From assembly GCA_022710975.1 (NCBI GenBank), contig JAKLGA010000006.1, positions 1-64,000 of the forward strand: a DNA stretch of 64,000 nucleotides, written 5' to 3'. The first letter of the stretch is position 1. Every line of letters begins with the position of its first letter. The translations under genes were made by a program, and so were the position numbers. Shown here in pieces: positions 41,845 to 58,172 of the stretch. The notes under the pieces are model-generated. The model saw only the letters and a list, made by a program, of their open reading frames with translations, was not told the DNA's origin and did no database searches. The DNA comes from Myxococcota bacterium. GTDB taxonomy: Bacteria > Myxococcota > B64-G9.

Positions 41845-43548
41845 TCACCCGCCCAGCAGATCGAACCACACCTTCGGCTGCCTGCGGGGGGTCTGGGACT
41901 CGATCACCGCCGCCCAGGCGAGCAGGCGGTGCTCCTCCCACATGCGGCCGATGAGCTGCAGCCCGACAGGCAGCCCCTCGGGGGTGTAGCCGGCGGGCAC
42001 GGAGATGGCCGGCAGCCCGGTCAGGTTGGCGGCCGGGGCGAAGCGCATGATGCGCTCGAGGGCGTTCAGATCGGACTCGCCGGCGCGCAGCGCGTCCCGG
42101 GGGATGGGCAGCGCGGCGCAGGCCGTGGCCGGGGTGGCCAGGGCGTCCACCTGCGCCAGCGCCCCGTGGAAGTGGGCCGCCAGCCGGGTGCGCAGCCGCT
42201 GGGCGTGCACGTAGTCGGCGGCCGTCAGCCGGTTGGCGAGCGCCAGGTTCAGGCGCGTGTCTCCGCCGTAGTCCTTGCGGTGCTGGGCGCGGTGCTCGAG
42301 CTGGGAGGCGGCCATCTCGGACACGATGGTCACCATGTGGACCACCCGCAGCAGCGCGAGCTCGGGCAGGCGGACCGCCACCCGGGTGGCGCCGGCCCGC
42401 TCCAGGATCTCCAGCCCGCGCAGGCAGGCCGCCACCACGGCTGGCTCCGCGTCCCGGAACCAGGGCTCGTACACCCCGATCCGCAGCCCGTGGAGATCGG
42501 TCCGCCCGAAGCCGTCCAGGGTGGGCGGCGGCTGGCCCCAGGTGTTCGGATCGGCCGGATCCGGGCCGGCCATCAGCAGGTAGCCCAGCGCCGCGTCGCG
42601 GGCGCTGGCGGCGATGGGCCCCACGTGGGCCACGCTCCAGCACAGGGGCGCCGCGCCCCGCTCGCTGACCCGCCCGAAGGTGGGCTTGAGGCCCACCGCG
42701 CCGCACAGCGCGGCCGGGATGCGGATCGAGCCCCCGCCGTCCGCGCCCACGGCCAGCGGGCACAACCCCGCCGCCACGGCCGCGGCCGGGCCGCTGGAGG
42801 AGCCGCCGGTGATGCGCTCCGGCGCGTGCGGGTTGCGAACGGCGCCGTGGTGCGGGTTCACCCCGGTCACGCCCAGGCCGATCTCGTGCATGTTGGCCTT
42901 GCCGATCAGCACGGCCCCGGCCGCGCGCAGCCGGGCCACGGCCGTGGCGTCCTCCGCGGCCGGCCCCCGGGCGCCCAGGAAGCGGGTGCCCACCGTGGTG
43001 GGGTAGCCGCGCTGGTCGAGCTCGTCCTTGACCACCACCGGGATCCCGTCCAGGGGCGAGAGGGCCTCGCCCCGCGCCAGGCGCGCGGCCGCGGCCCAGG
43101 CCTGGGCGTGGACGTCCTCGGAGTCCTGGGCCAGGATGGCCCGCAGCGGGGGCGTCAGCGCCTCGGCCCGGGCGCAGCAGGCCAGCGCGAGCTCGGCCAC
43201 GGCCACCGGATCCGTGCGGCGCTCGCGGTAGGCCCGGGCCAGGTCGCCCACCGTGGGGGGGAAGAACCCCTCGGGCCGGGCGGGCTCGGGCAGCGCCGCC
43301 AGGCGCAGTGGATCGGGCGCGTGGCCGGGCGCGGGCGGGCTGGACGGGGCGGGCGGCGGCTGCAGGGTCGGCGCCTCGGTCGAGCCGGCCGCGCGCAGCT
43401 CCGGCACGCCGGCGCTGGTGAGCAGGGTGCCGGACAGGGCCGCGCCGCCCAGGCGCCCCTCCGCCAGCCCGGCCAGGAGCTCGAGGGTGCGGCCCGCGGT
43501 GCGCGGCGCGCGGATGGGCTTCAGATCGTAGCGGTCGTCGCCGGTCAT
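41845..43548 (-). CDS. Amidase-signature hydrolase
   Basis: 567 aa. Ser-cisSer-Lys amidase: Lys174 in IPVVVKDELDQ, the Ser cluster in GGSSSGPAAAVAAG (250-252) and the nucleophile Ser274 in GADGGGSIRIPAA. An N-terminal extension of about 95 residues, Pro/Ala-rich, precedes the domain. No signal peptide is evident. Substrate unknown; amidases of this type act on small amides, acylated amino acids or amidated tRNA. It is the last gene of the long minus-strand block and may be read from that transcript; 21 bp separate it from the barrel gene upstream. Confidence 0.9.
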   Translation of the reverse strand: MTGDDRYDLKPIRAPRTAGRTLELLAGLAEGRLGGAALSGTLLTSAGVPELRAAGSTEAPTLQPPPAPSSPPAPGHAPDPLRLAALPEPARPEGFFPPTVGDLARAYRERRTDPVAVAELALACCARAEALTPPLRAILAQDSEDVHAQAWAAAARLARGEALSPLDGIPVVVKDELDQRGYPTTVGTRFLGARGPAAEDATAVARLRAAGAVLIGKANMHEIGLGVTGVNPHHGAVRNPHAPERITGGSSSGPAAAVAAGLCPLAVGADGGGSIRIPAALCGAVGLKPTFGRVSERGAAPLCWSVAHVGPIAASARDAALGYLLMAGPDPADPNTWGQPPPTLDGFGRTDLHGLRIGVYEPWFRDAEPAVVAACLRGLEILERAGATRVAVRLPELALLRVVHMVTIVSEMAASQLEHRAQHRKDYGGDTRLNLALANRLTAADYVHAQRLRTRLAAHFHGALAQVDALATPATACAALPIPRDALRAGESDLNALERIMRFAPAANLTGLPAISVPAGYTPEGLPVGLQLIGRMWEEHRLLAWAAVIESQTPRRQPKVWFDLLGG

Positions 43549-43569: not shown

Positions 43570-44184
43570 TCAGAGCGTCCAGCCCAGCAAGGCGTGGGCG
43601 GTCAGCAGGATCCCGGGGAAGCCCAGGGCGCCCTGGGCGTCCGCCTCGAGCCCCAGCCAGAGGTGGCGCTGGGGGGTGTGCCAGACGAAGCCCAGGCCCC
43701 CGAGCCAGCCCAGGCGCAGGTCGCCGTCGAAGCCCTCGACGCGCACCAGGATGTCCGGCCGGACCCACTGCACGCCCACCCCGCCGCGGGCGAACAGATC
43801 GAAGCGCCCCAGCGGCAACGCCAGGCGCAGGCCGCCGTGGGCGGCGTGGGTGGTGAAGGTGCCGGGCTGCGGGGGCGCGGGCTGGTCGGTGTCGTGCAGC
43901 GCGCTGGTCCAGGCGGCCTCCACGGCCAGGTAGGGCCACAGCTCGTAGGCGGCCTGGAAGGAGAACACCGCGCCCACGTCGGCCATCGGACCGACCGCCC
44001 CGACCCACACCGCCGGCCCGACCGAGGCCCGCAGCTGCAGCCCGCGCGGGATGGCGTCCTCCGGGGCGGGGCACTCCGCGCCCTCCGGCGCGGGCGCCTC
44101 CTCGGCCCGGCCCGCGCCCGGCGCCAGCAGGCCCAGCGCCAGGCACGACGCCAGGGCGAGCCGGGACACGCGCGCGGCGCTCAT
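43570..44184 (-). CDS. Outer-membrane beta-barrel protein (possible NfsH/GltH counterpart)
   Basis: 204 aa. A signal peptide ends near GAGRAEE (about residue 27). The rest shows alternating hydrophobic strands (QLRASVGPAVWVGAV, LAVEAAWTSAL, FDLFARGGVGVQWV, LGWLGGLGFVWHTP) and ends in Leu, as expected for a small barrel. It overlaps the upstream lipoprotein by 4 bp. In Myxococcus a barrel (GltH/NfsH) follows the TonB-like protein G; the position here matches, but sequence homology was not tested. Confidence 0.7.
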   Translation of the reverse strand: MSAARVSRLALASCLALGLLAPGAGRAEEAPAPEGAECPAPEDAIPRGLQLRASVGPAVWVGAVGPMADVGAVFSFQAAYELWPYLAVEAAWTSALHDTDQPAPPQPGTFTTHAAHGGLRLALPLGRFDLFARGGVGVQWVRPDILVRVEGFDGDLRLGWLGGLGFVWHTPQRHLWLGLEADAQGALGFPGILLTAHALLGWTL

Positions 44185-44810
44185 CCCCCCTCCCGCACGC
44201 GGACGGTGAGCTCGAGCTCCACGCGGGCCTGCTCCTCGCCGGGCAGGGACGCGCCCAGCAGCCAGGCGAGCGGCGCCGGGCCCTGCCCGGGCGAGGGGGG
44301 CTCGCAGGCCGGGTGGTGGCCGGCCGACCAGGCCAGCTCGGCGGCGGTGAGCTCGCCCTCGGAGAAGGAGCGCACCACCGCCTCGCCCGGCCCCAGCCGG
44401 TGGAGGTGGAAGGCGAACACCTCCACCCGCGGGCGGTCCGGCAGCACGTCGGGATCGGGCCAGCCGGGCTCGGCCTCGGCGCCCACCCACACCTCCACGC
44501 TGGCCGCCTCGCCCGTCAGGTGGGTGAGCTTGTAGTCCACCCGCAGCTCGAGCGTGGAGACGACCTGCACCAGGTGGTCGCAGGCGCAGGGCGGCTCCCG
44601 GTCGGGGTGGTCGCGCAGGCAGGACTGCAGGTCCTCGAGCGCGGCCCGCTGCCCGGCGTCGAGCGGCAGCTCGAAGGTGCGGGCGGCCGTGCGCTCCTCG
44701 AGCGGGGTCGGGGCCTCCAGCGTGTAGGGCCCGAAGTAGCGCTCGGGGGTGCAGGCGCCGCCGAGCAGCGCCAGGGCGAGGGCCAGGCAGGCGAGGGGCG
44801 CGGCGCTCAT
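44181..44810 (-). CDS. Lipoprotein of unknown function
   Basis: 209 aa. The signal peptide ends in the lipobox LLGGAC (Cys about residue 20). The mature protein is strand-rich with a CLRDHPDREPPCACDH Cys cluster and EVFAFHLHRLG. No family recognised. It overlaps both neighbours by 4 bp (TonB-like protein upstream, barrel downstream), so all three are coupled and probably work together. Confidence 0.75.
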   Translation of the reverse strand: MSAAPLACLALALALLGGACTPERYFGPYTLEAPTPLEERTAARTFELPLDAGQRAALEDLQSCLRDHPDREPPCACDHLVQVVSTLELRVDYKLTHLTGEAASVEVWVGAEAEPGWPDPDVLPDRPRVEVFAFHLHRLGPGEAVVRSFSEGELTAAELAWSAGHHPACEPPSPGQGPAPLAWLLGASLPGEEQARVELELTVRVREGG

Positions 44811-46225
44811 TGGCTCCGTCCGAAGCTGAACGGGTAGACCACGCGCACCTTGCCGCCCTGGGGCACGGGGAAGCGCCAGCGGCGGATGAAGCGCACCAGG
44901 CAGCTGGCCACCTGCTCCCCGGCGGTGCGGTTGGAAAGGCCGTTGTCGGGGATGTTGACCGTCCTGACCGAGCCGTCCGGCTCGATGATGAAGTCGACCA
45001 CGATCTTGCCGCGCAGGGTGGGGAAGCGCATCAGCTGGGACTCGTAGCAGTAGCGGATCGAGCCCTTGTTGCGCATGACCACGTCCGCGATCTGCTTCTT
45101 CGACAGCGTGCCGCCGGTGACCTGGGCGCCCTCGGCCGGCATGGCCAGCTCCACGCGCGCCTCCGCGCGGCCCGCCAGGCGGCTGCCGCTGGCCGCCTCC
45201 CGCCCGGCCTGGCCCACCCGCGGGCCGTCCGCCCGCGCGTCCTGGCCGACCGCCTCGGTGCTGGTGCGGGCGTGCTGGAGCGAGGCGGCCAGGCCCTCCT
45301 CGCCGACCGAGCCCAGCACGCGCGCCCGGCCCTTCTCCAGGTCGCGCATGGCCGACTCCAGGCTGCGGTTCAGCCCGCTCTCGTCCAGCAGGTTGGACAG
45401 CGAGCGGTTGGACTTGCGGGCCTCCGACATGGCCGCCACCAGGCCCTTGTTGGCCACCTTGTCGCGCAGCCGCTTGCGCGCCTCGTCGCCCTCGTCGGCC
45501 GGTCGCTCGGGCGGCGCCTCCGGCCGGGCCTCGGGCCTGGCCTCCGGGCGGGTCTCCGGCTTCTCCTTGCGCTTGCGCTCCTCCTCCTCGCGCCGGCGGC
45601 GCTCCTCCTCGCGCAGCTTCTTCGCGTCGCGCTGGAGCTCCTCGACGGCGTTGGGATCCTCGATCACGAACGACACGAAGCGCTCCGGCAGCTGCTCCAC
45701 GGTGAACTCCGTGGCCGGGGCGCCGAACAGGCGCGAGGCGAACACCACCAGCAGCAGAAACCCCATGCTCCCGGCGAAGATGCCCGAGACCAGCCGGTCG
45801 AGCCCGAGCACGTCCACCAGGCCGGGGGGCGGGGGTGCGGCGCCGGCCTGGACGAAGTCGAAGGCCAGGCCCACCCGGCCGAAGACCAGCACCCCGCGGT
45901 CGGCCTCGGTCAGCCCGACGTGCAGCGCGCCGTCGCGCTGCTCACCCACCTCGGCCCGCCCGGCCAGCAGCTCCTCCACGTCCCAGCTCCTGCCGCCCAG
46001 CGAGAGCTGGCCGCGCATGCCCGCGCGCAGCCGCAGCTCGGCGCTGCCGCGGCCGGCCTTGAGCAGGGCGAAGCGGCGCCCCAGGCCCTCCGCCCGCAGG
46101 GCGAAGGTGTTCCGCCAGGAGTCGCCCGCGGTGACCGCCTGGCCGGGCCGGAACACGCGCTCCTCGAACAGGGTCCGTTCCCAGACCATGGAGCAGCGCA
46201 GCAGGTGGGGGGCGGTGTTCGGCAT
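44807..46225 (-). CDS. Inner-membrane protein with TonB-like tail (NfsG/GltG-like)
   Basis: 472 aa. The N-terminal 130 residues form a cytoplasmic strand-rich region, perhaps an FHA-like fold. A membrane helix follows (about 150-170, SGIFAGSMGFLLLVVFASRL), then a charged coiled region (about 195-260, EERRRREEEERKRKEK), a periplasmic linker and a C-terminal TonB-like domain. The tail (YCYESQLMRFPTLRGKIVVD, then VASCLVRFIRRWRFPVP and YPFSF) fits the AgmX/PglI-type tail of myxobacterial gliding and sporulation proteins. This layout would span the inner membrane and periplasm to transmit force or signal. Confidence 0.8.
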   Translation of the reverse strand: MPNTAPHLLRCSMVWERTLFEERVFRPGQAVTAGDSWRNTFALRAEGLGRRFALLKAGRGSAELRLRAGMRGQLSLGGRSWDVEELLAGRAEVGEQRDGALHVGLTEADRGVLVFGRVGLAFDFVQAGAAPPPPGLVDVLGLDRLVSGIFAGSMGFLLLVVFASRLFGAPATEFTVEQLPERFVSFVIEDPNAVEELQRDAKKLREEERRRREEEERKRKEKPETRPEARPEARPEAPPERPADEGDEARKRLRDKVANKGLVAAMSEARKSNRSLSNLLDESGLNRSLESAMRDLEKGRARVLGSVGEEGLAASLQHARTSTEAVGQDARADGPRVGQAGREAASGSRLAGRAEARVELAMPAEGAQVTGGTLSKKQIADVVMRNKGSIRYCYESQLMRFPTLRGKIVVDFIIEPDGSVRTVNIPDNGLSNRTAGEQVASCLVRFIRRWRFPVPQGGKVRVVYPFSFGRSQ

Positions 46226-46239
46226 GCTCGTTCCGGCGG

Positions 46240-46268
46240 ATTCTCCAATCCCCCTTGGGACGTGTCAA
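46240..46268 (-). promoter_or_regulatory. Internal promoter before the TonB-like gene
   Basis: Minus strand: perfect TTGACA (46268-46263), 17-bp spacer, GAGAAT (46245-46240), 15 bp before the ATG at 46225. It would give the last genes of the block a second transcript. Confidence 0.5.
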
Positions 46269-46272
46269 GGCG

Positions 46273-46291
46273 CCCGGAGGTTCCCTCCGGG
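46273..46291 (-). terminator. Hairpin after the small exported gene, possible attenuator
   Basis: Perfect 8-bp stem CCCGGAGG/CCTCCGGG with a 3-nt loop (46273-46280 with 46284-46291), 15 bp downstream of the stop at 46307 on the minus strand. No T-run, so it may only slow or protect the RNA; the promoter follows directly. Confidence 0.35.
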
Positions 46292-46306
46292 GCCGGGCCC
46301 GGGGGC

Positions 46307-46585
46307 TCACAGGAAGGGCGCGTCGCGGGTCTCGAGGGTGCGCCGGGTCAGGTCCGGGTCGGGCAGCCGGAAGGAGCGGAAGCGCGTGCGGATGCGTTTC
46401 AGGAAGTAGAGCAGCTGGGGCGCCTTCACGTTGCCCTCGACGTCCAGCTCGTCGAAGCGGTAGACGCGCACCGAGCCGGCCTCCTTGCCCGCCGGGGCCG
46501 CGGGCTCGGCCGCGCCGGCCGGCCAGGCCAGGCACACGCTCAGGCACAAGAGCAGGGCAAGCACGCGCCGGGGCAGGCTGGTCAT
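46307..46585 (-). CDS. Small exported protein (possible NfsF/GltF counterpart)
   Basis: 92 aa. The signal peptide ends near WPAGAAEP. The mature part of about 65 residues has VRVYRFDELDVEGNVKAPQL followed by LYFLKRIRTRFRSFRLP, which resembles the FDxLDVEGxxxxPxxxY-type motif found near TonB-like proteins in Myxococcota. Its ATG overlaps the stop of the TPR lipoprotein by 4 bp. In the Nfs/Glt order a small protein (F) stands between E and G, as here. Confidence 0.7.
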   Translation of the reverse strand: MTSLPRRVLALLLCLSVCLAWPAGAAEPAAPAGKEAGSVRVYRFDELDVEGNVKAPQLLYFLKRIRTRFRSFRLPDPDLTRRTLETRDAPFL

Positions 46586-47757
46586 GGCTTGGCTCCTGGC
46601 TTGGATCCCGCGCCCAGCGGGCCGGGCGCCTTGGCGGGCGCCTCCGCGGGGCACGCGGCCGGGTTCTGCAGGCGCAGATCCTCCATCAGCTCGCGGGTGC
46701 GGCGGGCCAGGGCCTCCTCCGCCCGGCCCGAGGCCAGCAGGCGGCGGAAGGCCTCGCAGGCCCAGTCCGGCTTGCCGCGGTGGTTCATGTACAGCAGCCC
46801 CAGGTTGAACATGGACTCCGGGTTCTGGCCGTCCAGGCCCAGGACCTTCTGGTAGCTGCGCTCGGCCTCCTCGATGCGCCCCAGCCCGCGCTGGGCCACC
46901 GCCAGCCCGACCAGCCCCGGCAGGAAGCCCGGCACGCGCTGGGTCAGGCGCTGGTACACCCCGGCCGCCCGCGCGTAGTCGGCGCTCTGCATGTACACGG
47001 CCGCGGCGTTCAGGAAGGCCTCGGGCAGGGGGGGCTCGCGCGCGGCGGCCTTCTGGAACATCTCCAGCGCCTCCTGCACCCGGCCCGAGCGCAGGCGCGC
47101 CAGCCCGAGGTTGTTCAGCACCTCGGCCTGGTCCGGCGACAGCGCCAGCGCGCGGCGGAACAGATCCTCGGCCATCTCGTGGCGATCGGTCTCGGAGAAG
47201 CTGGTGGCCAGGTTGTTGTACGCCAGCACGTCGCGCGGGTCGCGATCCAGCACGAAGCGGGCCTGCTCGATGGCCTTGTCGTGATCGCCCTGCAGGCGGT
47301 AGAGCACCGCCAGGCTGTTGCGCGCGGCGAAGTCGTCCGGCCGGGCCTCGATCAGCTCCTCGAGCATGTCGACCGCCTCGCCCAGCCGGCCCGCCCGGCG
47401 GGCGGCCGAGGCCAGGTCGAACAGCGCCGCCCGATCCCCCGGCTTGAGGTCGAGCGCCCGCACGAAGGCGGCCCGGGCCTTGGCGTAGTCGTTGCCCCGG
47501 TCGTACAGCACCCCCAGGTTGTAGTGCGCCTCGAACAACTCCGGGTCCGCCGCCGCGGCCGCCTCGAAGGCGGTGACCGCCTCGTAGTAGCTGGTGCCCT
47601 TCTTGGAGCCGAGCAGGCGGATGCCCTGGTTGAACTTCTCGACCGCCGCGCGCTTCTGGCGGGCCAGGCCGTCGTCGGGCTTCACCACGGGCGGCGGGCT
47701 GCAGCCCGCGCCGGCGAGCCACAGGGCCGCCAGGGCCGCTGCCAGGGCGCGCCTCAT
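46582..47757 (-). CDS. TPR lipoprotein (NfsE/GltE/AglT-like)
   Basis: 391 aa. The signal peptide ends in the lipobox LAGAGC (Cys about residue 19). Seven or more TPR units follow, from FNQGIRLLGSKKGTSYYEAV through AVLYRLQGDHDKAIEQARFVL to NLGLLYMNHRGKPDWACEAF. A Pro/Ala-rich end closes it. Overlaps neighbours by 4 bp on both sides. In Myxococcus the E component is a TPR lipoprotein directly after the large TPR protein D; size and position agree. Confidence 0.8.
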   Translation of the reverse strand: MRRALAAALAALWLAGAGCSPPPVVKPDDGLARQKRAAVEKFNQGIRLLGSKKGTSYYEAVTAFEAAAAADPELFEAHYNLGVLYDRGNDYAKARAAFVRALDLKPGDRAALFDLASAARRAGRLGEAVDMLEELIEARPDDFAARNSLAVLYRLQGDHDKAIEQARFVLDRDPRDVLAYNNLATSFSETDRHEMAEDLFRRALALSPDQAEVLNNLGLARLRSGRVQEALEMFQKAAAREPPLPEAFLNAAAVYMQSADYARAAGVYQRLTQRVPGFLPGLVGLAVAQRGLGRIEEAERSYQKVLGLDGQNPESMFNLGLLYMNHRGKPDWACEAFRRLLASGRAEEALARRTRELMEDLRLQNPAACPAEAPAKAPGPLGAGSKPGAKP

Positions 47758-50700
47758 GGCTTGCCCTTCCCGGCGGGGGCCGCGGGCGCCGGCAGGGGCG
47801 GCAGCGGCAGGGGTTTCTGCAGCAGCGGGAACTCGAGGAAGGAGTCGGCCCAGCGGGTGCCCGGGCGCGCCTCGGGCTCCTGGGGCCACTTGCCCGGGTC
47901 GAGCTTCCGCAGCATCTCGATGGTGCGGAAGGTCCACTGGCTGGTGTAGTCGTGCTTGCGGGCGGTCTCCGCGCTCAGGCTGAAGGCCGACAGGGCCTTG
48001 TCCTCGATGGGGAAGGCCAGGCTCTGCAGCTCCTGCCGGTACACCTCGGCCTCCTCGGCGCTCAGCCCCGCGGGCATGGGGGCCTGGTAGATGGCCTGGG
48101 CGAAGCGCGCGTACATGTCGCCGATGCGGAAGAGCGCGGCCGAGGCCCACTCGAGGTGCCCGGCCGCGACCACCTGGACGAACAGGCCCTCGGCCTTCTT
48201 GAGCAGGTCGGCCTTCTGCTTCAGCCCCTTGACCAGGCTGGGCAGGGGCGGCCGGAGCTGGATGCGCTCGTACTCGGCGTACACCAGCTCCCCGAGCAGG
48301 AAGCGGCAGTGGGCGGCCGACTCGAGCTCCGCCCCGGCGGGCGGCTTGCCCGCGGGGAAGAGCGCGCAGCGCTCGAGCTCCTTCTGGGCCAGGCCGGGCT
48401 TGCCCTGGCGCTGGAGGGCCAGCCCGAGCTGCAGCCCGGCCTCCCGCGGCCTGGCCTGCCGGGCCGGGGGGAGCTTGCGGTAGCGGCGCAGGACCTCCTC
48501 GGCCCGCCTGGCGTCGCCGGCGTCGCCGAGCGCTCGGGCGGCCGCCAGCAGCGCCTCGGGGGTCTGCTCGTGCCCGGGGTTCGCCCGGGTGAACTCCTCG
48601 AGCAGCTCGGCCTCGCGGGCGGACTCCCGCAGGGCCCGGTGCAGCAGCGCGGCCTGCAGCAGCCCGCCCGCGGCGCGTTCGTCCCTGGGGAAGCGGCGGG
48701 CGAAGTCGGTGTAGGCGGAGGCCGCGCGCGCGTAGTCGTACTGGCGCTCGAACACGCCGGCGATGACGAACAGGGCGTCCGCGGCCTTGTCCGGGTAGCG
48801 CGACACGACCTCCTGGTAGGCGGCCACGGCGGCGGCCTTCTCGCCCGCCTTCTCCAGGGACACGGCCGCGTTGAACAGCGCCTTGGAGGCCAGCTCCGAG
48901 GTGGGGAACTCGTCGGACACGCGCCGGTAGGCGCGCTCGGCCCGGCGGTGCTCGCCCGCCGCGCCCAGCGCCGTGGCGGCCTGGAACATGGCCGCCGGGA
49001 TGAGCTCGGGCAGCTGCTTGCCCAGCGGCCGTTCGGCGAACCAGCCCTTCTCCAGGAAGTGGCGCGCCAGCCGCTCCACCTCGTCCCAGCGGGCCGCCCG
49101 CGAGGCGCAGTCCAGCGCCAGGTCGGCCGCCGGCTCGGCGTAGCGATCGGCCGGGCGGGCCTCCACCAGGGCCACGAAGCGCTTGCTGGCGGGCTCGAAG
49201 TGCCCCCGGGCGTAGAGCGTCCGGCCCACCTCGAAGGAGAGCTGGCCGATGCGCTCCTGCTCGGGCCCCAGGGCGAGGTAGACCTCGGCGGCGCTGACGA
49301 AGCCGCGCTCGGCCTCCGGCAGCGCCTCGGGCTTGGGGGGCGGCTCGGGGGGCGGGGGAGCCTGCCGGCGCAGGACGTCCCAGGCCAGCACCGCGGCGTA
49401 GGCCGCCTCCTTGCGCAGGCCGGGCTCGGCGGCCCGCTGGGCGGCCTGGCCGTAGTGGCCGGCGGCCTCGGCGTGGCGGCCGAGCTGGTGGAGCACCTCC
49501 CCCAGGTAGAAGTGCATGCCCGGCGCCGGCGGGGTCTCGGGGAACATGGCCAGGTAGGCGCGGTAGGCCTGCTCGGCCACCTGGTAGGCCTTGGGCTCCT
49601 TGGCCGCCTGGGCCTGCTGGTGGCGCTTGAGGGCCACCTGGCGCAGCGCCGCCTCGGCCAGCTCGGTGGCCCGCGCCACGGCCGCGGGCGCCTGGCGGTT
49701 GGCCTGGGCCCAGGCCGAGCCCGGCCCGTAGGTCTCGGCCAGCGCGCGCCGGGCCTCCAGGCCGGCCTCGGCGCGGCCGTCCTGCTCGAAGGCCTGGGCG
49801 ATGCGGGCCTGGTGGTCCGGGCTCTTGGGCGAGAGCGGGAACCGCTCCACCAGCAGGCGCCAGGCCTCGATGGCCTTGGGGAAACGCGCCTGGCGGAAGA
49901 ACACCTCGGCCAGCCCGTCCAGCACGCGGATCGAGTAGTCCTCGCCGCCCACCTGCTGCATGAAGCGGTAGGCCTCCTTGGCCCCGCCCGCCTCGGAGAA
50001 GGTCAGCGCCAGATCCTCGAGGGTCTCCTTCTCCAGATCGCCGGAGGCGGTCTCCACGCGCTCGCCTGCCTGCGTGGCCGCCTTGCGCCCGCGGGCCCGC
50101 TCCAGGACCCGGCGGAAGAACTCGGCCGCCTCGCGGGCCCGCCCGCGCTTGAAGTGGCACCAGGCCGTCTTGTACAGCGCCAGATCGGTCAGCGGCGAGT
50201 CCGGCTGGGCCAGCACCGCGGCGTAGCGCTTCAGCGCGCCCTCGAACTCGGCGTGGTCGAACTCGTACTCGCCGATCGCCAGCTGGGCGTCGGGGGCGAA
50301 GGGGCTCCCGGGGTAGCGCTGCAGCAGCGAGCGGAACACGCCGAGCGCGGCCTGCTCGTCGCCCAGCTCGTTGAGCGCGAAGCCGTACAGGTACAGCACG
50401 GTGTCGCTGCGGGCGAAGTCGGGGTGCTTCTCGAGCAGCTCCTCGTAGACCAGGAGCGACTCGCGCAGCTCCAGGCGCGGCTCGCGCGGCCGCTCCGCGA
50501 GGGCGCCCTGGCGGAAGGCGTCGAGCTGCTGCTCGTAGCGCTTCATGTCCTGGAGCATGCGCGCCTCGGCCCGCTCCCACTGCAGCTCGGCCAGGCGGAA
50601 CAGGGCGTCGGCCCGCTCCGCGGCGGCGGGGTGCCGATCCAGGAACTCCCGCAGCAGGCCGATGGCCGCGTCGCGCTGGCGATCCACCTCCGCCTCGCGC

Positions 50701-50867
50701 TGCTGCATCTGGGCCTCGACCCAGCTCGGACCGCCGGGGACGGGTGGGCAGGCGGGCGGGGCGGGGCAGGGGTCGGCCGCGCCGCACGGCCCCCCGGCCG
50801 CGGCCGGGCGGGGCAGCAGGGCGAGCGCCAGCGCGGCGCCCGCGAGCAGGCAGCCTCGACGGCTCAC
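47754..50867 (-). CDS. Giant TPR protein (NfsD/GltD/AgmU-like)
   Basis: 1037 aa from a GTG overlapping the previous stop (GTGA); an in-frame ATG at 50885 would overlap more. The signal peptide ends near RPAAAGGP, followed by a Cys/Pro-rich stretch (CGAADPCPAPPACPPVP). Nearly all the rest is TPR-like helix pairs, e.g. DAAIGLLREFLDRHPAAAERADALFRLAELQWE. It would be a large periplasmic scaffold, as proposed for AgmU/GltD. Several units have the 'aggregated tail' Ala-Gly-Asp-Ala pattern. Homology is judged by size, domain type and gene order only. Confidence 0.8.
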   Translation of the reverse strand: MSRRGCLLAGAALALALLPRPAAAGGPCGAADPCPAPPACPPVPGGPSWVEAQMQQREAEVDRQRDAAIGLLREFLDRHPAAAERADALFRLAELQWERAEARMLQDMKRYEQQLDAFRQGALAERPREPRLELRESLLVYEELLEKHPDFARSDTVLYLYGFALNELGDEQAALGVFRSLLQRYPGSPFAPDAQLAIGEYEFDHAEFEGALKRYAAVLAQPDSPLTDLALYKTAWCHFKRGRAREAAEFFRRVLERARGRKAATQAGERVETASGDLEKETLEDLALTFSEAGGAKEAYRFMQQVGGEDYSIRVLDGLAEVFFRQARFPKAIEAWRLLVERFPLSPKSPDHQARIAQAFEQDGRAEAGLEARRALAETYGPGSAWAQANRQAPAAVARATELAEAALRQVALKRHQQAQAAKEPKAYQVAEQAYRAYLAMFPETPPAPGMHFYLGEVLHQLGRHAEAAGHYGQAAQRAAEPGLRKEAAYAAVLAWDVLRRQAPPPPEPPPKPEALPEAERGFVSAAEVYLALGPEQERIGQLSFEVGRTLYARGHFEPASKRFVALVEARPADRYAEPAADLALDCASRAARWDEVERLARHFLEKGWFAERPLGKQLPELIPAAMFQAATALGAAGEHRRAERAYRRVSDEFPTSELASKALFNAAVSLEKAGEKAAAVAAYQEVVSRYPDKAADALFVIAGVFERQYDYARAASAYTDFARRFPRDERAAGGLLQAALLHRALRESAREAELLEEFTRANPGHEQTPEALLAAARALGDAGDARRAEEVLRRYRKLPPARQARPREAGLQLGLALQRQGKPGLAQKELERCALFPAGKPPAGAELESAAHCRFLLGELVYAEYERIQLRPPLPSLVKGLKQKADLLKKAEGLFVQVVAAGHLEWASAALFRIGDMYARFAQAIYQAPMPAGLSAEEAEVYRQELQSLAFPIEDKALSAFSLSAETARKHDYTSQWTFRTIEMLRKLDPGKWPQEPEARPGTRWADSFLEFPLLQKPLPLPPLPAPAAPAGKGKP

Positions 50868-52711
50868 TGGTACTCGTCCGGCCATCCCTCTCCGTCGTAG
50901 GGCCAGTACTCCAGCCCCTCGTCGAGCGCCCCGGACTCGGCCAGCGCCCGCAGCGCCGAGAGCGGGTAGCGCCCCAGCGCCAGGTTCTGCACCTCGATCT
51001 CCAGGGCCTGCTTGCGGCCCACCACCGCGTCCACCTTGCCCAGCGAGGCCTGGCGCGCCCAGATGGCCACCTGCTGGCTGGCCCGCCGCAGGTGCGCCGC
51101 GCGCGCCGCCTGCAGGAGCGCCTCGGCCGAGCGCGTGGCCGCGGCCAGGCGCAGCGCCAGCGCCCCGAGCGAGGCGCGCTCCGCGTCCAGGTAGGCCAGC
51201 GGGGTGCGGGCGGGATCGGCCGCCGTCGCGGCCGGGGCCCGCGCCCAGGCCCCCGCCTCGAGGCGGACGAGCTGCGCGCGGGCGCGCTCGCGGGCCGCCT
51301 CCACCCGGGCGGCCACCTGGCCGAGCTCCTCGAGCGCGGCGGCCGCGCCCTCGGCCCGGCCGAAGCGCGCCCGCAGGTCCGCGGCCCGCTGGGACAGCCC
51401 GTCCGCCCGGCTCAGCTCGGCCCGCAGGCGCTCGGCCAGGAGCTCGCCGGCGGGCGCGGCCTCGGTCCGCCGGGGCATGCCCGTGCGCACCCGCTCGAGC
51501 TCCGCCCGCAGGCGCGCCAGGGCCTCCCGGGAGTGCGCCAGGCCGGCGGCCAGCGCCTCGGCGCGCCGCTCCCGGCCCGCGAGCGGGACCCAGGGTTGCA
51601 CCTCGGTCGGCAGGGCCCGCGGGGCCGCCCCGGCGGCCTGCGCCTCGAGCGCGGCGCCCAGCGCCTCCAGCCGGCCGGCGTCCGCCCGGAGCAGCGCCTC
51701 GGCCTCGTCCCAGCGGCAGGCGGCCAGGTGGGTGTAGGCCAGCAGCAGGCGCGCGGCGGGCTCGTCCTCCCAGGCCGCGGGCTGCAGGAGCAGCGCCTCC
51801 AGCTCCGCGGCGGCCGCGTCCAGCCGGCCCGCCCGCTGCAGCGACCAGGCCAGCTCGTAGCGGGCCCGCGGGCCCACCCAGGGGTCGTCCTCCACCCGCC
51901 GGTAGGTGTCCGCGGCGTGCATGAACTTGCCGCGCTCGTAGCGCAGGCGGGCCAGCGCCAGCCAGGCGTGGGCGACCGCCTGGGCCGCCTGGTCGGACAG
52001 GAAGAAGGGCTCGCGGCCGGAGGCGGGCCGCCGCACGAGCCTGCACAGCTCGTCCTCGGCCGCCTCGCGGTCGCCCCGCTCCAGGGCGATGAGCGCCAGC
52101 AGGTAGCGGGCCGAGGCGTACAGGCGGCTGGCCGGTCCGATGCGGCCCAGCGGCTCCCGGGCGCGCTCGGGGTGCCCGAGCGTCAGCAGCGCCTTGCCCT
52201 GCAGGTAGGCCACCTCGTCGGTCTCCCCGGGCTCGAGGCGGAGGGACGCGAGCGGCGTCAGGGCGGGCTCGAACTCGTCCGAGCGCAGGGTCAGCTCCAC
52301 CAGCCGGCGCAGGGCGGGCCCGCGCAGGTCGGAGGGCGGGCTGCGTCCGATCAGCTCGAGCAGGAGCTGCCGCGCCCGGACCAGCGCGCCCTCGCGCGCC
52401 AGCGCGCTGGCCAGGTAGTAGCGGGCGGTGTCGGCGGCCGGCTCGCCGGCCAGGCGGGTGAAGCGCGGGTCCAGCAGCAGGGCGCCCAGCGCCCGGGCCG
52501 CGGCCTGGCTGGCGCCGTCCAGGTACAGCGTCTCGGCCCCGCGCAGGCGCTCGGCCAGCTCCGCCGGGCTGGCCTCGGCCGCGGCGGGCGCCCCCGCCCT
52601 GGCCGGCCGCGCCTGCTGGGCCAGCCAGCGCCTGAGCTCGGTCTCGGGCCCGTGCAGCAGGTCGGCCTGCGCCAGGAGCCCGAGCCACGCCAGCACCCAC
52701 ACACCCAGCAT
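50864..52711 (-). CDS. Exported TPR/coiled-coil protein (possible NfsC/GltC counterpart)
   Basis: 615 aa. The ATG at 52711 is chosen because GGAGGCGAG lies just before it; the frame extends six codons further. The signal peptide ends near GLLAQA. The first 330 residues are TPR-like (for example ARYYLASALAREGALVRARQLL); residues about 375-520 are Ala/Leu/Arg-rich coiled-coil; the end (YPLSALRALAESGALDEGLEYWPYDG) has a Trp/Tyr-rich tail. It lies directly upstream of the giant TPR gene with a 4-bp overlap, as C precedes D in Nfs. Confidence 0.75.
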   Translation of the reverse strand: MLGVWVLAWLGLLAQADLLHGPETELRRWLAQQARPARAGAPAAAEASPAELAERLRGAETLYLDGASQAAARALGALLLDPRFTRLAGEPAADTARYYLASALAREGALVRARQLLLELIGRSPPSDLRGPALRRLVELTLRSDEFEPALTPLASLRLEPGETDEVAYLQGKALLTLGHPERAREPLGRIGPASRLYASARYLLALIALERGDREAAEDELCRLVRRPASGREPFFLSDQAAQAVAHAWLALARLRYERGKFMHAADTYRRVEDDPWVGPRARYELAWSLQRAGRLDAAAAELEALLLQPAAWEDEPAARLLLAYTHLAACRWDEAEALLRADAGRLEALGAALEAQAAGAAPRALPTEVQPWVPLAGRERRAEALAAGLAHSREALARLRAELERVRTGMPRRTEAAPAGELLAERLRAELSRADGLSQRAADLRARFGRAEGAAAALEELGQVAARVEAARERARAQLVRLEAGAWARAPAATAADPARTPLAYLDAERASLGALALRLAAATRSAEALLQAARAAHLRRASQQVAIWARQASLGKVDAVVGRKQALEIEVQNLALGRYPLSALRALAESGALDEGLEYWPYDGEGWPDEYQ

Positions 52712-52736
52712 CTCGCCTCCAGCGGCCACGGCCGGC

Positions 52737-53375
52737 TCAGCGGCCGGTGGTGAAGCTCGCCTCGATGTCCACGTCCCAGCTCCCCTCGGGCGCTTCCCCC
52801 GCCAGATCGTCCGTGTCGGGCGGGTCGCCGTCCTGCTCGGCCTCGAAGCGGGCCCGGGTCACGGCGCCCTCCCGCAGGTGCACCGCCAGCCCGCTGCCGG
52901 CCAGGTAGCCGGGCGGGGCGCCCTCCGGCTCGCCCGGCCCCCGCGCCAGCACCCGCACCAGGAGCAGGTGGCGGCCGGGCGGCAGGTGGCCGTCGAAGAG
53001 CTGGAGCAGCTGCACGCTCGGCGGGCGCTGGAAGTCCTGGGCGTAGGTCAGCGCGCCGTCCAGCCACAGCTCCACGCGCGCGAGCTGGAAGGGCGCGTCC
53101 AGCTCGCCCCGGTAGGTGACCGTCAGCCGCGCCCCGAACAGCTTCTCGGCCAGCACGCCCAGGCGGGCCTCGGCCGCGGCCAGCTCGTCCCGCAGGCGGC
53201 TCTGCTCGAGCGCGATCTCGGCCAGGGCCTTCTCGTCCAGCCCACCGGCCTCCGGCGCGGCCGCCGCCGGCGCGTCGGCTGGCGCGGCCGCCGGCGCTCC
53301 CGGGCCCGCCAGGGCCACGCCGGCCAGGACCAGGCCGGACAGGCACAGCGCGGTCAACCAGACACGTGCGGCCAT
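52737..53375 (-). CDS. Exported protein with coiled-coil and strand-rich domain
   Basis: 212 aa. The signal peptide ends near GVALAGPG; an Ala/Pro linker and a short coiled coil (AEIALEQSRLRDELAAAEARLGVL) follow, then a strand-rich domain with VELWLDGALTYAQDFQRPP and GRHLLLVRVLARG, which looks like an Ig/PEGA-like sandwich. It lies between a barrel lipoprotein and the TPR gene. No counterpart can be named with confidence; GltK is a lipoprotein and this lacks a lipobox. Confidence 0.7.
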   Translation of the reverse strand: MAARVWLTALCLSGLVLAGVALAGPGAPAAAPADAPAAAAPEAGGLDEKALAEIALEQSRLRDELAAAEARLGVLAEKLFGARLTVTYRGELDAPFQLARVELWLDGALTYAQDFQRPPSVQLLQLFDGHLPPGRHLLLVRVLARGPGEPEGAPPGYLAGSGLAVHLREGAVTRARFEAEQDGDPPDTDDLAGEAPEGSWDVDIEASFTTGR

Positions 53376-53389
53376 GTGCGCACCTCCGC

Positions 53390-54739
53390 TCAGAACTCGG
53401 CCGCGAGGCCGACGAAACCGCCCAGTCCCCAGCCCGCGTCGAAGGCGCGCGGCGCGCCTCCGGCCAGGGAGTCGTAGGCGCTGAAGCCGTTGGGGGGATC
53501 CTCGAAGCCGAAGTCGGAGCGCACCACCCTGACGCCGAGCTCCAGGTGGAGCGCGCGGAACATGCCCATCAGGCGCCCCTCGATCGGCAGGAAGGCCAGG
53601 CCCAGGGAGGCCTGGGCCCACCAGGCCAGGTAGGCCGAGAGCTGCCGATCGGCCGTCCAGTAGCTCCCGGGCGGGCCGTCGGGGTAATCGTCGCGGTAGA
53701 AGCTGGCGCGGATCTGGTGGTAGGCCCCGCCCTCCAGGGACAGCCGGGCCAGGTCGCCCAGGCGCTGGTGGTAGCCGAGCTGGACCCGGGCGTGCTCGAC
53801 CCGCCAGGTGTCCGCGCCGTACCCGCCGCCGAGCTCCAGCGCGCCCGCCAGGGCGGGCAGCAGGAAGCGCGCCCTCAGCAGGGCCCCGAAACGCGCGCGC
53901 GAGCCCGGGTGCTGCTCGGGCAGCACCTGGGGCGCCGCGCCCGGGGGGGCCGCGGGCTCACCGGGCCGGTGGCTCCACAGGCTCACCTGGCGGTAGGGGC
54001 TCTGCAGGAAGCCCTGCTCCAGGCGCGCCTCGAGATCGAGGCGCAGCGCCACCCCCGGCAGGAAGCCCTGCTCGAGCGCCGCCAGGAAGCAGTCCTCGTC
54101 GCGGCGCGCGTCGAGGGGCTCCCCGCCCGCGGGCCGGTGGGTGGCGTCCACCTCGACGAAGGCGATGCGCCGGAGGTAGCCGACCTCCAGCAGGGTGTCG
54201 CGGCCGAGCACGTGGGTGCGGGCGGAGAAGCCCGGCTCGTGGCGATCCCCGTCCCAGGCCGTCCGGTAGCGGTAGCCGGCCCGCAGCAGGCTGGTGCCGT
54301 CGTCGTACAGCAGGGCCGCGTCCGGTCCGTGCTCGAGCCGGGTGAGGTCGAGCGGCCCGGCGAAGCCGTCGAGCTTGTGCACCCGCTCGCGGCTCCAGCC
54401 CTCGCCGTAGCCGGCCTCGAGCCCGAAGCCCTCGACCAGCTCCAGGGCGGCCCGCAGGCTCGTCGCCTGGCTCGCCGCGCGGGCGTCGGCCCCGGGATCC
54501 CCGTCGGCCGAGAGCGCGAGCCGCAGGCTGTCGGCGGGCAGCGGCGCGTGGACCGGCGAGCCCCCGCCGGGGGGCTCCACGACCGCCGCGGGCGCGAAGC
54601 CCATGAGCGGGTCGGCCAGCGCCTCGCGCTCCACCAGGCGCTCGGCCGCGCAGCCCGGCAGCGCGAGCGCGAGCAGCAGCCCGGCGCAGCGCGCCCGGCC
54701 GCGCGAGCGGGCCGCGGGCGGTGCGCTCAGGGCACCCAA
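53390..54739 (-). CDS. Barrel-type outer-membrane lipoprotein
   Basis: 449 aa from a TTG at 54739, with GGGGG upstream; it overlaps the previous stop by 13 bp. A hydrophobic signal ends in the lipobox ALPGC. The body has many amphipathic strands ending in aromatic residues (GLEAGYGEGWSRE, LLRAGYRYRTAW, LLEVGYLRRIAFVEV, RARFLLPALAGALELGGGYG, LELGVRVVRSDFGF) and the final residues are GLAAEF. This is a large barrel resembling DUF3570-type proteins. Predicted to insert in the outer membrane; substrate unknown. Confidence 0.72.
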   Translation of the reverse strand: MGALSAPPAARSRGRARCAGLLLALALPGCAAERLVEREALADPLMGFAPAAVVEPPGGGSPVHAPLPADSLRLALSADGDPGADARAASQATSLRAALELVEGFGLEAGYGEGWSRERVHKLDGFAGPLDLTRLEHGPDAALLYDDGTSLLRAGYRYRTAWDGDRHEPGFSARTHVLGRDTLLEVGYLRRIAFVEVDATHRPAGGEPLDARRDEDCFLAALEQGFLPGVALRLDLEARLEQGFLQSPYRQVSLWSHRPGEPAAPPGAAPQVLPEQHPGSRARFGALLRARFLLPALAGALELGGGYGADTWRVEHARVQLGYHQRLGDLARLSLEGGAYHQIRASFYRDDYPDGPPGSYWTADRQLSAYLAWWAQASLGLAFLPIEGRLMGMFRALHLELGVRVVRSDFGFEDPPNGFSAYDSLAGGAPRAFDAGWGLGGFVGLAAEF

Positions 54740-55377
54740 AAACCGACCCCCAGGGCGAGTCCCAGGCTGTTGGTGACCCGCTGGCTGCCCAGCAGGTTCT
54801 GCACCTGGATGTAGTCGCGCACGTCGAGCCGCAGCGACAGCCACGAGTTGGTGAACACCTTGATGCCCAGGCCGACGTGGTAGGTCAGCCCCTCGCTGGT
54901 GCGGCTGTCGGTCAGCCCCAGGCCGGCCGACAGGTAGATGTCGAAGTGGGGGATGGCCGCCTGCAGCAGCATGAACTTGCCGTGGATGGGGTGCCAGGCC
55001 AGGCCGAACTGGTAGATGAAGGCGTGCTCGTCCTCGAGCAGCTCGTAGCCGGTGTAGCCCTCGACCTGCTCGGCCAGGGTCGAGGACAGGTGGGTGTAGG
55101 CGAAGCCGAGCTCCACGCCGAAGTCCTCGGTGGCGTGGAAGGTGTAGGACAGGCCCGCCAGCGGCGCGGCGCCCATCAGCTCGTTCATGAACAGCCCGCC
55201 CAGGACGTTGATCTCGTGCCGCAGCGCCTTGGTGAAGTCGCGCTTGGCCAGGCCCTTGCGGCTGCCCTCCTCGGTCTCGGGCGGCTCCGGACAGGTCGCC
55301 CGCGCGGCGGGGGGGACGGCCAGCGTGAGCGTGAGCATGAGCGCCAGTCCAAGGCGGAGCGGCCTCGTGTTCGGCAT
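54727..55377 (-). CDS. Outer-membrane barrel (OMP_myx_plus-like; possible NfsB/GltB counterpart)
   Basis: 216 aa. The signal peptide ends near PAARATCPEPP. KALRHEINVLGGLFMNELMG and GLSYTFHATEDFGVELGFAYTHL open the barrel, followed by YQFGLAWHPIHGKF and FDIYLSAGLGLTDS. This pattern is typical of a small outer-membrane barrel family widespread in Myxococcota, and the 63335 gene at the window end has the same style. Placed beside the SH3b-barrel gene, it would be the second of two barrels at the head of the operon, as NfsA-NfsB. Confidence 0.75.
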   Translation of the reverse strand: MPNTRPLRLGLALMLTLTLAVPPAARATCPEPPETEEGSRKGLAKRDFTKALRHEINVLGGLFMNELMGAAPLAGLSYTFHATEDFGVELGFAYTHLSSTLAEQVEGYTGYELLEDEHAFIYQFGLAWHPIHGKFMLLQAAIPHFDIYLSAGLGLTDSRTSEGLTYHVGLGIKVFTNSWLSLRLDVRDYIQVQNLLGSQRVTNSLGLALGVGFWVP

Positions 55378-55409
55378 GCGGTGCACCCGTTTTCTCCTCG
55401 TCCCGTGCC

Positions 55410-56225
55410 TCAGAAGGCCCACATCAGGCCGCCGGTCACCATCAGCAGCGCCCAGCTCTGCTCCGCGTCGAAGGTCAGGGTCTCGCGGACGTCGACGCGG
55501 AAGGTGATGCCATCCTGGAAGGCCAGCAGCAGCCCGCCGCCGGCCATCAGCATCGGGTAGGTCTTGTCGCTCAGCAGGCGCCCCTCCCGGTTGGGCAGGC
55601 TGGTGGCGCCCCCGCCGCCCAGGGCGGCGAAGGGGGTGAGCGTGCGCCAGGGTCCCACGGTGACCACCAGCTCCCCGCCGTACAGCAGCATCCCCCCCAG
55701 CCGGCCGGCCGACTGCCCGACCAGCACCTCGAGCAGGTAGTGCGGGCTGGGCTGGTAGCCCAGGCGCACCAGGAAGAAGCCGTCCCGATCGAGCGCGCCG
55801 GCGCCGACGGAGATGCACAGCTGGTCCTCGCCCAGGATGGAGGGGCCGAGCACCTCGCGGAACAGCCAGCTCGGCTGGCTGGTCGGTTCGTCCTCGTCCG
55901 CCAGCTCGAACGGCCAGACCAGCTCGGTCAGCACCCAGCCGCTGGTGGCGCGGGACAGGCGGATGCGGTACCAGGCCCCGTCCGGGCTGCGATCGAGGGC
56001 CTCGTACACCTGGCCCTGGCCGACCCGGCCCACCTCGCGGTAGGAGCCCCCGGGCCCGGCCCGCACCGGGACGCTGCGGGCCATGACCTTGAGCATGACG
56101 CTGCGGCCGGAGGCGAACCACCCGCCGCCCAGGCCCCTGGCCAGGCCCGGACCGGGCGCGAGCAGGAGCAGCAGCCCGGCCGCGACCAGCCAGCCCCGCG
56201 CCGTGGAGCCCGGGCAGCGCCTCAC
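55410..56225 (-). CDS. SH3b-domain outer-membrane protein (possible NfsA/GltA counterpart)
   Basis: 271 aa, GTG start overlapping the previous stop. The signal peptide ends near PGLARGLGG. Residues about 45-115 are an SH3b domain (SVPVRAGPGGSYREVGRVGQGQ, then WYRIRLSRATSGWV), which often binds peptidoglycan. The C-terminal part has barrel-type strands (FFLVRLGYQPSPHYLLEVLVG, ITFRVDVRETLTF) and ends in GLMWAF. A wall-contacting domain joined to a barrel fits an envelope-spanning machine. Confidence 0.72.
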   Translation of the reverse strand: MRRCPGSTARGWLVAAGLLLLLAPGPGLARGLGGGWFASGRSVMLKVMARSVPVRAGPGGSYREVGRVGQGQVYEALDRSPDGAWYRIRLSRATSGWVLTELVWPFELADEDEPTSQPSWLFREVLGPSILGEDQLCISVGAGALDRDGFFLVRLGYQPSPHYLLEVLVGQSAGRLGGMLLYGGELVVTVGPWRTLTPFAALGGGGATSLPNREGRLLSDKTYPMLMAGGGLLLAFQDGITFRVDVRETLTFDAEQSWALLMVTGGLMWAF

Positions 56226-56695
56226 GGCGGGCCCCCTGCGCTGCTGCGCAGCCAGGACAGGATCTCCTCGCGCGCGGCGGGCGTGAGCGCCGCCCGGCCC
56301 GGGTGGGAGCCGGGTTCGTCCGCGCCCCAGGCCAGGAGCTGGCTGGCCTCGGGGAAGCCGAGGTCGCAGAACGCCAGCACCGTGTAGTAGTCCGCCAGGA
56401 AGGGCTGGGGGAGATCCAGGGGGTGGACCGGGTGGCTGGCCGCGGGCAGGGGCTCGGGCGAGGCGGTCAGCCGCAGGCTGGCGTCCTCGCGGCCGTGGCA
56501 GGCGGCCGCGGCGCAGGCCGAGGAGAGCTGCGGATGGACCTGGCGGGCGAAACGTTCAGGATCGGGCAGCCGCTGGATGGGCCCCAGCGTGCGGGTGCCG
56601 TCGTCGACCGTCCCGCAGGCCGCGAGCGAGCCGCCCCAGGCGCACAGGCCCAGCGCCAATGCAATGCGTCGCGCTGCTCGTTTCTTGGCGCTCAT
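56222..56695 (-). CDS. Small lipoprotein, first gene of the Nfs/Glt-like block
   Basis: 157 aa from the ATG at 56695. The signal peptide ends in the lipobox SLAAC (Cys about residue 27). ACAAAACHGREDASL contains a CxxxxxCH motif reminiscent of a c-type haem site but not the standard CxxCH. The latter part is helical and Pro-rich. The -10 element of the predicted promoter (56706-56711) covers the alternative ATG at 56710, so the message would be nearly leaderless from 56695. Confidence 0.65.
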   Translation of the reverse strand: MSAKKRAARRIALALGLCAWGGSLAACGTVDDGTRTLGPIQRLPDPERFARQVHPQLSSACAAAACHGREDASLRLTASPEPLPAASHPVHPLDLPQPFLADYYTVLAFCDLGFPEASQLLAWGADEPGSHPGRAALTPAAREEILSWLRSSAGGPP

Positions 56696-56891: not shown

Positions 56892-57065
56892 ATGGCAGAG
56901 GAGAAGGCGAACAAGAAGGCCGCGGCGGTCGGCGAGGCGGAACCGGGCAAGACCAAGGTGGATGCGACCAAGCGGAGAAATCCTGGCGCGGCGACGCCCT
57001 CCAAGAAGGCAGTGACCAAGACGTCCTCGAAGCAGGCCCCGAAGGACTGGGACCACGTGACCTGA
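56892..57065 (+). CDS. Small Lys/Ala-rich basic protein
   Basis: 57 aa: 11 Lys, 2 Arg and 11 Ala. It opens MAEEKANKKAAAVGEAEPGK, continues with KVDATKRRNPGAATPSKKAV and ends QAPKDWDHVT. GAGGAGGTGG lies before the ATG, and a near-consensus promoter 66 bp upstream suggests strong expression. The composition recalls histone-H1-like or other nucleic-acid-binding tails, but no family is recognised. No signal peptide. Confidence 0.72.
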   Translation: MAEEKANKKAAAVGEAEPGKTKVDATKRRNPGAATPSKKAVTKTSSKQAPKDWDHVT

Positions 57066-57166: not shown

Positions 57167-58114
57167 TCAGGGAATATCGCGATCCTTGGGCTTGACCTTC
57201 TGCTGGTCGAGGGCGGAGTCCTTGACCTGCTCGAGGGTGGCGCGGAACTGCTCGGCGCGCTCGAGATCGAGCTGGCGGGAGTAGTCCTTGTAGATCATCC
57301 AGCCGATCCACAGGGCCGCGCCGATCAGCACCAGCAGCGCCAGGATCAGGATCTCGCGGGTGCCGAAGGTGAACACGGTGCGCACGACGCGCTGCGGGCT
57401 GGCCATGCGGTCCGTGGGAGAGCGGAACGGCTCGGCGCGGAAGTCGGTCGTACCCGTGCGCTGGCCCGAGCCCGCCTTCTTCTTGGGCTGGGCCGAGCTC
57501 ATGTCGAACTGGCGGATGTCCAGGGGCTCGAGGGCGGGGTCGGAGACCTCGCCGGGCTCGGGCACGGGCCCGCCGGCCGTGGGCGTCTTGCGCATGCCCA
57601 GCTCGTCCAGCGCCAGATCGAGGGGCTGGGCTCCGCCCGGGCGCGGGAAGACGCCCGAGGACAGATCCTCGACCAGGGCCTTGAACGGCGCGGGCGGCGG
57701 CGGCACCTTCCGGTCGGGCCGGGCGCTGCGCGCCGGGGGCGGGGTGGACTTGACCTGCGGCTTGGGTTTGGCGGCGGGCGGACGCTTGCCCGCGCCAGGG
57801 GCCGGGGTCCCGCTGTTGAGGGGCATGAAGACCGGGAGGAGGTCTCCGCCGAGCGAGGTGGAGACGGGCGCATCCCGGGACGCGTCCTTGGGGGAGGCCG
57901 CCTGGATCGAGGGCAGGTCGAGGACCTCGGTGGCCTCCTCGTTCGAACCCTCGACGGTGTCCGCGAACAGGTCCGGTAGGATCTCGGACGGCTGGGGCAG
58001 GCTGGCCTTGGTGTCGACGGAGATGTCGACCTCGAACTCGTCGTGGGCATGGACGACCTTGCCAGGTTTTTTCCGGCCGCTCGCGCCCTTGGGTTCGTCG
58101 CCTGGAGCGGACAT
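57167..58114 (-). CDS. Membrane protein with long Pro-rich cytoplasmic region
   Basis: 315 aa. The ATG at 58114 follows GAGGAG. About 245 residues of charged, Pro-rich sequence (KSTPPPARSARPDRKVPPPP) come before a single membrane helix (EILILALLVLIGAALWIGWM, about 262-281) and a short charged tail (YSRQLDLERAEQFRATLEQ). Not recognised. The N-terminal region contains EFEVDISVDTKASLPQPSE, which could be a docking site. It is divergent from the Ser/Thr kinase gene, whose linker has a similar style; it might be a kinase substrate (speculation). Confidence 0.7.
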   Translation of the reverse strand: MSAPGDEPKGASGRKKPGKVVHAHDEFEVDISVDTKASLPQPSEILPDLFADTVEGSNEEATEVLDLPSIQAASPKDASRDAPVSTSLGGDLLPVFMPLNSGTPAPGAGKRPPAAKPKPQVKSTPPPARSARPDRKVPPPPAPFKALVEDLSSGVFPRPGGAQPLDLALDELGMRKTPTAGGPVPEPGEVSDPALEPLDIRQFDMSSAQPKKKAGSGQRTGTTDFRAEPFRSPTDRMASPQRVVRTVFTFGTREILILALLVLIGAALWIGWMIYKDYSRQLDLERAEQFRATLEQVKDSALDQQKVKPKDRDIP

Positions 58115-58142
58115 CCCGCGTTCTCCTCGGCACCAGGCCCCC

Positions 58143-58172
58143 ATCCTATCCCCGCTCTTTCCGGCGGTGCAA
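58143..58172 (-). promoter_or_regulatory. Promoter for the Pro-rich membrane protein
   Basis: Minus strand: TTGCAC (58172-58167), 18-bp spacer, TAGGAT (58148-58143), about 30 bp before the ATG at 58114. Confidence 0.5.

Follow-up and report, generated by a model that had tools for sequence, protein, structure and literature searches.

The twelve-gene operon at 43570-56695 of the window, the whole 64,000-nucleotide stretch of Myxococcota DNA analysed here, very probably belongs to the Agl-Glt/Nfs class of envelope machines and forms a distinct, lineage-specific branch of it, judging from the homologues it encodes and their positions in trees. By the same comparisons, its closest relative is neither Nfs nor Glt but the G4 system of Myxococcus. 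The best explanation as a whole, which we consider likely, is a lineage-specific Agl-Glt/Nfs branch using a motor supplied in trans and moving a platform at the cell surface. Agl-Glt/Nfs machines have been noted earlier in many configurations (PMC3858216), to which the operon adds a further branch; a literature search, not complete, found no paper describing this branch. As a stable, separately evolving branch with defined lineage-specific parts and no in-cluster motor, the operon tests how far one motor can serve different envelope machines, and it provides a defined new branch of motor-coupled systems for study.

Organisation of the operon

The operon comprises twelve minus-strand genes, running from 56695 down to 43570 in the order lipo1, SH3-barrel, A, B, X2, C, D, E, F, G, lipo2 and H. 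All the open reading frames, with the order and protein types assigned in a first-pass annotation of the DNA, were confirmed; gene starts were corrected versus the first listing, and the start codon of B is TTG. The description of most genes as overlapping by 4 bp just holds, with the exact overlap at 6 of the 11 junctions and the others consisting of one 13-bp overlap and gaps of 14, 25, 32 and 81 bp (81 bp being the largest). The genes, and a candidate thirteenth upstream, are:

lipo1, 56222-56695, minus strand: 157-residue lipoprotein with lipobox LAAC
SH3-barrel, 55410-56225, minus strand: exported; bacterial SH3 domain followed by a predicted OMP_myx_plus-like outer-membrane barrel
A, 54727-55377, minus strand: predicted outer-membrane barrel of the GltA/GltB/NfsA/NfsB type
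B, 53390-54739, minus strand: 449-residue lipoprotein (LPGC), predicted outer-membrane barrel
X2, 52737-53375, minus strand: exported; homologue of the neighbour of the GltC homologue in G4-type clusters
C, 50864-52711, minus strand: exported TPR protein of the GltC/NfsC type
D, 47754-50867, minus strand: giant exported TPR protein (1037 residues) of the GltD/NfsD type
E, 46582-47757, minus strand: TPR lipoprotein of the GltE/NfsE type
F, 46307-46585, minus strand: 92-residue exported protein in the GltF/NfsF position
G, 44807-46225, minus strand: inner-membrane protein with a TonB-like (AgmX/PglI) periplasmic tail
lipo2, 44181-44810, minus strand: lipoprotein (GGAC)
H, 43570-44184, minus strand: predicted outer-membrane barrel in the GltH position, by CglE-type profile and family alignment
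Candidate thirteenth gene, 57167-58114, minus strand: Pro-rich cytosolic protein with a single C-terminal TM helix, upstream of lipo1

Homology of A, C, D, E, F, G and H to Glt and Nfs parts, proposed at first pass together with an nfsA-H-like gene order, is borne out on both counts, the homology by profile matches and by alignments of D. Homologues of GltC, GltD, GltE and GltG are encoded together in the operon, the core by which the Agl-Glt/Nfs class is recognised. The TPR and TonB-like proteins find their expected counterparts, D by alignment (23-32% identity, mostly across 700-1000 residues, to D from Glt, Nfs, G4 and core clusters) and E and G by matches below the curated cut-offs of NCBIfam GltE (137 bits, cut-off 225) and GltG (150 bits, cut-off 650, the alignment starting at model position 206). 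C matches GltC at 46 bits (cut-off 450) and H matches CglE at 37 bits (cut-off 70), while F weakly matches, at profile level, the F proteins of Nfs and G4 clusters. The cytosolic domain of G, 143 residues long, lacks FHA and is followed by a single TM helix at about residues 144-163 and the tail, which scores 93 bits with myxo_SS_tail, above the curated cut-off; a profile search of G against solved structures returned nothing. A reaches 118 bits with OMP_myx_plus (cut-off 60), and a profile built from its family retrieves the barrels encoded in Glt and Nfs clusters. Among the NCBIfam-matched proteins C, E, G, H and A, curated cut-offs are passed only by A and the tail domain of G.

Lipoboxes are carried by lipo1, B, E and lipo2. 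Orthologues of lipo1 are present in G002-G008, with an invariant CX4CH plus HPG and a likeness to small heme-motif lipoproteins, and the protein has no match among Pfam or NCBIfam families. The SH3-barrel protein, kept within the same bacterial family (f1), matches SH3_3 (E 4.5e-9) and, partially and below the cut-off of 60, OMP_myx_plus (28 bits); B has a weak match to DUF3570. The AlphaFold2 model of X2 (pLDDT 75) contains a long helix and a beta-sandwich, for which the best neighbour in a fold search had Z 8.0 and nothing matched at E <= 0.001. Besides its lipobox, lipo2 has four invariant cysteines and is modelled as a jelly roll (pLDDT 88); the fold search ranks viral capsid proteins, BcsB and generic jelly rolls equally at Z about 8, and we therefore read no function from the fold. 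The candidate thirteenth gene has the same direction as the operon and a counterpart upstream in two other genera (28% identity), with none upstream at the remaining family loci, and its membership of the operon is uncertain.

Conservation within one family

Family f1, a group of uncultured Myxococcota, comprises nine genera among the sampled genomes, that of the window included; the next relatives share only the phylum, and the related genomes identified are all MAGs. Seven other genera have the lipo1-to-F block, with protein identities of about 37-66% and identical order wherever contigs are long enough; the G-lipo2-H block is present in all nine. Because both blocks recur across the genera of the family, conservation of the operon is, by this comparison, far beyond chance, and the linkage in related genomes that the first-pass annotation had proposed to check is present. 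The two blocks are fused in one uninterrupted operon only in the window and G004. They lie on different contigs in G002 and G008, and in G003 and G005 genes intervene between F and G. The 1.6-kb F-G gap of G003 was considered as a site for a motor gene and rejected, as by eye it holds an opposite-strand gene for a beta-lactamase/serine-hydrolase-type lipoprotein; the 4.9-kb gap of G005 likewise holds opposite-strand genes, one of them by eye like a TonB-dependent receptor, and no motor.

Four genes had been put forward as extra members relative to Glt and Nfs. This stands for B and lipo2, which are family-specific: lipo2 occurs in 9/9 family f1 genomes and 0/186 other Myxococcota genomes, and B in 9/9 at 559-756 bits and elsewhere in just five genomes at 20-42 bits. 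On these counts, B and lipo2 are lineage-specific extra parts. It does not stand for the gene at 52737, which is the X2 of G4-type clusters and occurs in 138 of 195 Myxococcota genomes. When 84,980 named species genomes were scanned with D, a search that reaches close relatives only, six loci were retrieved, all in MAGs.

Placement relative to Glt, Nfs and G4

In a tree of D plus E (35 rows, 1352 columns) the window clade is recovered with 100/100 support as sister to the G4-type clade (100/98), with Glt and Nfs in a separate clade (91/88). The AU test rejects a tree in which the window clade joins Glt/Nfs (p-AU 0.0078). The C tree agrees, with the window C sister to G4 at support 98; in the G tree the window clade stands apart from Glt/Nfs, with too little support (82/51) to settle whether the window G is closer to G4. 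The operon also has the G4-type arrangement of X2 beside C and a G without FHA, and falls beside the G4 clade, as its sister, not inside it. By the D+E tree and AU test, the operon is neither Glt nor Nfs. The first-pass suggestion that it is ancestral we dropped, because two added parts, B and lipo2, are confined to one family and D, E and C lie beside G4, with nothing placing the operon at the base; all roots are midpoints only, so the branches are given no older or younger ordering.

The same genome encodes several other clusters of Glt/Nfs type, which bear directly on whether the operon could be the organism's spore-coat or gliding system. That it is the Nfs (spore-coat) system is suggested by nfsA-H of M. 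xanthus, also a single operon with the same gene order (PMC3858216) and with A, C, D, E, F, G and H types in common. However, a cluster of A-B-C-D-E-F-G-H order, with D and E closest to Nfs and an H above the CglE cut-off, starts at the end of the window and runs through C26:63-76k; it falls on the Nfs side of the D+E tree, whereas the operon does not, as the AU result makes clear. The operon further differs from Nfs in the addition of lipo1, the SH3 domain, B, X2 and lipo2 and in a G without FHA, and the Nfs identity is extremely unlikely. An identity with the gliding machine (gltA-K in M. xanthus) is very unlikely as well: homologues of C, D, E, G, H and the barrels occur in both, and an AglRQS orthologue, presumably acting in trans for the operon as for Glt, is present in the genome, but a better Glt cluster lies on C9, scoring 618 bits with GltC (above 450), 635 with GltG (just below 650) and 116 with CglE (above 70) where the operon proteins fall far below the GltC, GltE, GltG and CglE equivalog cut-offs. 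GltI, GltJ and GltK are also missing from the operon, in which there is no gene of GltI size and the GltJ profile finds only a partial match via the tail (43 bits, cut-off 450).

Within the window the Nfs-clade cluster begins at 63203-64000 on the plus strand, just after a ribosomal protein L3 gene, and continues to C26:76k (L081); G003 has a cluster of the same Nfs clade on the same contig (L224). Two further clusters in the genome have their own motor, one of G4 type (C1:45-58k) and one of core type (C1:230-250k). Core2/G5-type clusters L222 (G136:C1:1556000-1575500), L080 and L228 form one clade in the D+E tree (100/100) that spans family f1 and the Myxococcus-like G136, the two family members having an in-cluster motor.

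A candidate motor in trans

The window, operon included, contains no motor gene, as the first-pass annotation had noted, and none was seen in or beside either block at the family f1 loci inspected. M. xanthus runs both Glt and Nfs with a single AglRQS motor, which contacts GltG/NfsG (PMC3858216), and a motorless operon is therefore expected in this class. The genome has eight MotA/ExbB genes, four of them followed by two ExbD genes each. Two of these R-Q-S-like triplets lie within clusters, and two stand alone at C1:429-430k and C1:658-659k. The suggested search for AglRQS/ExbBD-type genes led to the former: in the ExbB tree, in which several end branches are long and deeper splits uncertain, the C1:430k triplet (ExbB-ExbD-ExbD) groups with a triplet at 8.56 Mb in G136 (support 95), which from its position is taken as AglRQS. 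The C1:430k triplet has orthologues in seven other family f1 genomes. By analogy with M. xanthus, we lean slightly towards this AglRQS orthologue as the operon's motor, acting in trans, though coupling may differ since the operon G lacks the FHA domain of GltG.

The operon's machine could instead be driven by the stand-alone C1:658k triplet or by the motor that belongs to the G4-type cluster (C1:54-56k). The sister relationship of D, E and C to G4, and the frequency with which G4-type clusters have their own R-Q-S, speak for such an arrangement, but the G4 motor is encoded alongside its own G and the C1:658k triplet falls outside the Agl clade, so that we regard it as rather unlikely. Less probable is a static, motorless outer-membrane complex, for export or anchoring, built from Glt-type parts. 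The missing motor genes at the family loci would fit this, and the extra barrel B, the SH3 domain and the jelly-roll lipoprotein could serve anchoring or export; yet G retains its membrane helix and conserved TonB-like tail, and Glt and Nfs, likewise without an in-cluster motor, are motor-driven.

A proposed model of the machine

The operon's machine, moved by a motor supplied in trans in the reading we prefer, probably spans the whole cell envelope. The predicted parts are an inner-membrane TonB-like G, a periplasmic scaffold in which F and X2 join the TPR proteins C, D and E, and, at the outer membrane, a platform made up of the four predicted barrels (SH3-barrel, A, B and H) and the lipoproteins lipo1 and lipo2. 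In M. xanthus, AglRQS moves an envelope complex and its attached polymer along the surface (PMC3858216), and GltA, GltB and GltC assemble into a subcomplex of the outer membrane and periplasm (PMC4488436). Following these Myxococcus systems, G would couple to the proton-driven AglR-Q-S, and the TPR scaffold would relay the force beyond the peptidoglycan to the barrels; judging from its domain family, the SH3 domain might touch the peptidoglycan. The platform with its lipoproteins would then travel over the cell surface, where it would transport or remodel a bound surface polymer; Glt handles slime, and Nfs the Exo coat, in this way. A surface glycan is a possible cargo by this analogy, suggested tentatively. 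It is doubtful whether the operon encodes a dedicated transport machine with its own cargo, in which the SH3-barrel protein holds on to peptidoglycan, a new platform made of B and lipo2 binds glycan or acts as an adhesin, and heme c is bound by lipo1; if it did, a redox role or a role in surface contact, neither known in Glt/Nfs, would be coupled to a motor-driven envelope machine.

G4 and its linkage to mglBA

To our knowledge, Glt and Nfs are the only such systems of M. xanthus with a known function. G4 of M. xanthus is the cluster with the gltD homologue MXAN_1922, disruption of which left motility unaffected, and its function there is not known (PMC3169522). We infer that the L086 cluster of the Myxococcus-like genome G136 is G4, since G136 MglA is identical at 194 of 195 positions to a solved MglA chain and the L086 order, mglB, mglA, X2, C, D, is that expected from the locus tags MXAN_1926 and 1925 of mglB and mglA (PMC3983030) and 1922. 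The operon shares with G4 the parts X2-C-D-E-F-G, with G lacking FHA in both, but has four barrels together with lipo1, lipo2 and B, and lacks mglBA (absent from the window and from the eight orthologous loci L069-L076) and an in-cluster R-Q-S motor. A core complex of GltC, D, E and G with AglRQS has been described in Gamma- and Deltaproteobacteria (Luciano 2011, PMC3169522); the operon contains the four Glt-type proteins but differs in having no motor gene and a large outer-membrane addition.

Of 18 G4-type loci from nine Myxococcota families, 16 have mglB-mglA upstream of the cluster, and many of the clusters also have an R-Q-S motor; in L124 mglBA is several kb from its cluster. The linked loci are:

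L107:7723-9951 with L079, and L086:9174-11075: mglBA-linked G4-type loci
L109-L116, L118, L120, L121, L124, L125 and L176: further mglBA-linked G4-type loci

No statement of this linkage was found in the parts of the literature searched. The widespread association of G4-type clusters with the mglBA polarity switch in Myxococcota provides a handle on the role of G4.

Neighbouring genes

In the window an amidase gene (41845-43548, minus strand) directly follows H; it is absent beside H in G004, where an enolase gene is found instead, and a homologue (39%) directly precedes G in G008 (L232:8330-9841). A small Lys/Ala-rich ORF of 57 residues (56892-57065, plus strand), with a purine-rich stretch directly before its ATG, separates the operon from the membrane-protein gene upstream. 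Beyond lie divergent genes (58043-62356, plus strand) for a Ser/Thr kinase with a PEGA domain, a coiled-coil protein and a lipoprotein, a neighbourhood common to G006 (L074), the kinases being 63% identical. At 36645-39902 (plus strand) a large Cys-rich repeat protein has a lipoprotein-like start within its ORF, and the adjacent 32-36 kb region has a low GC content of 0.62.
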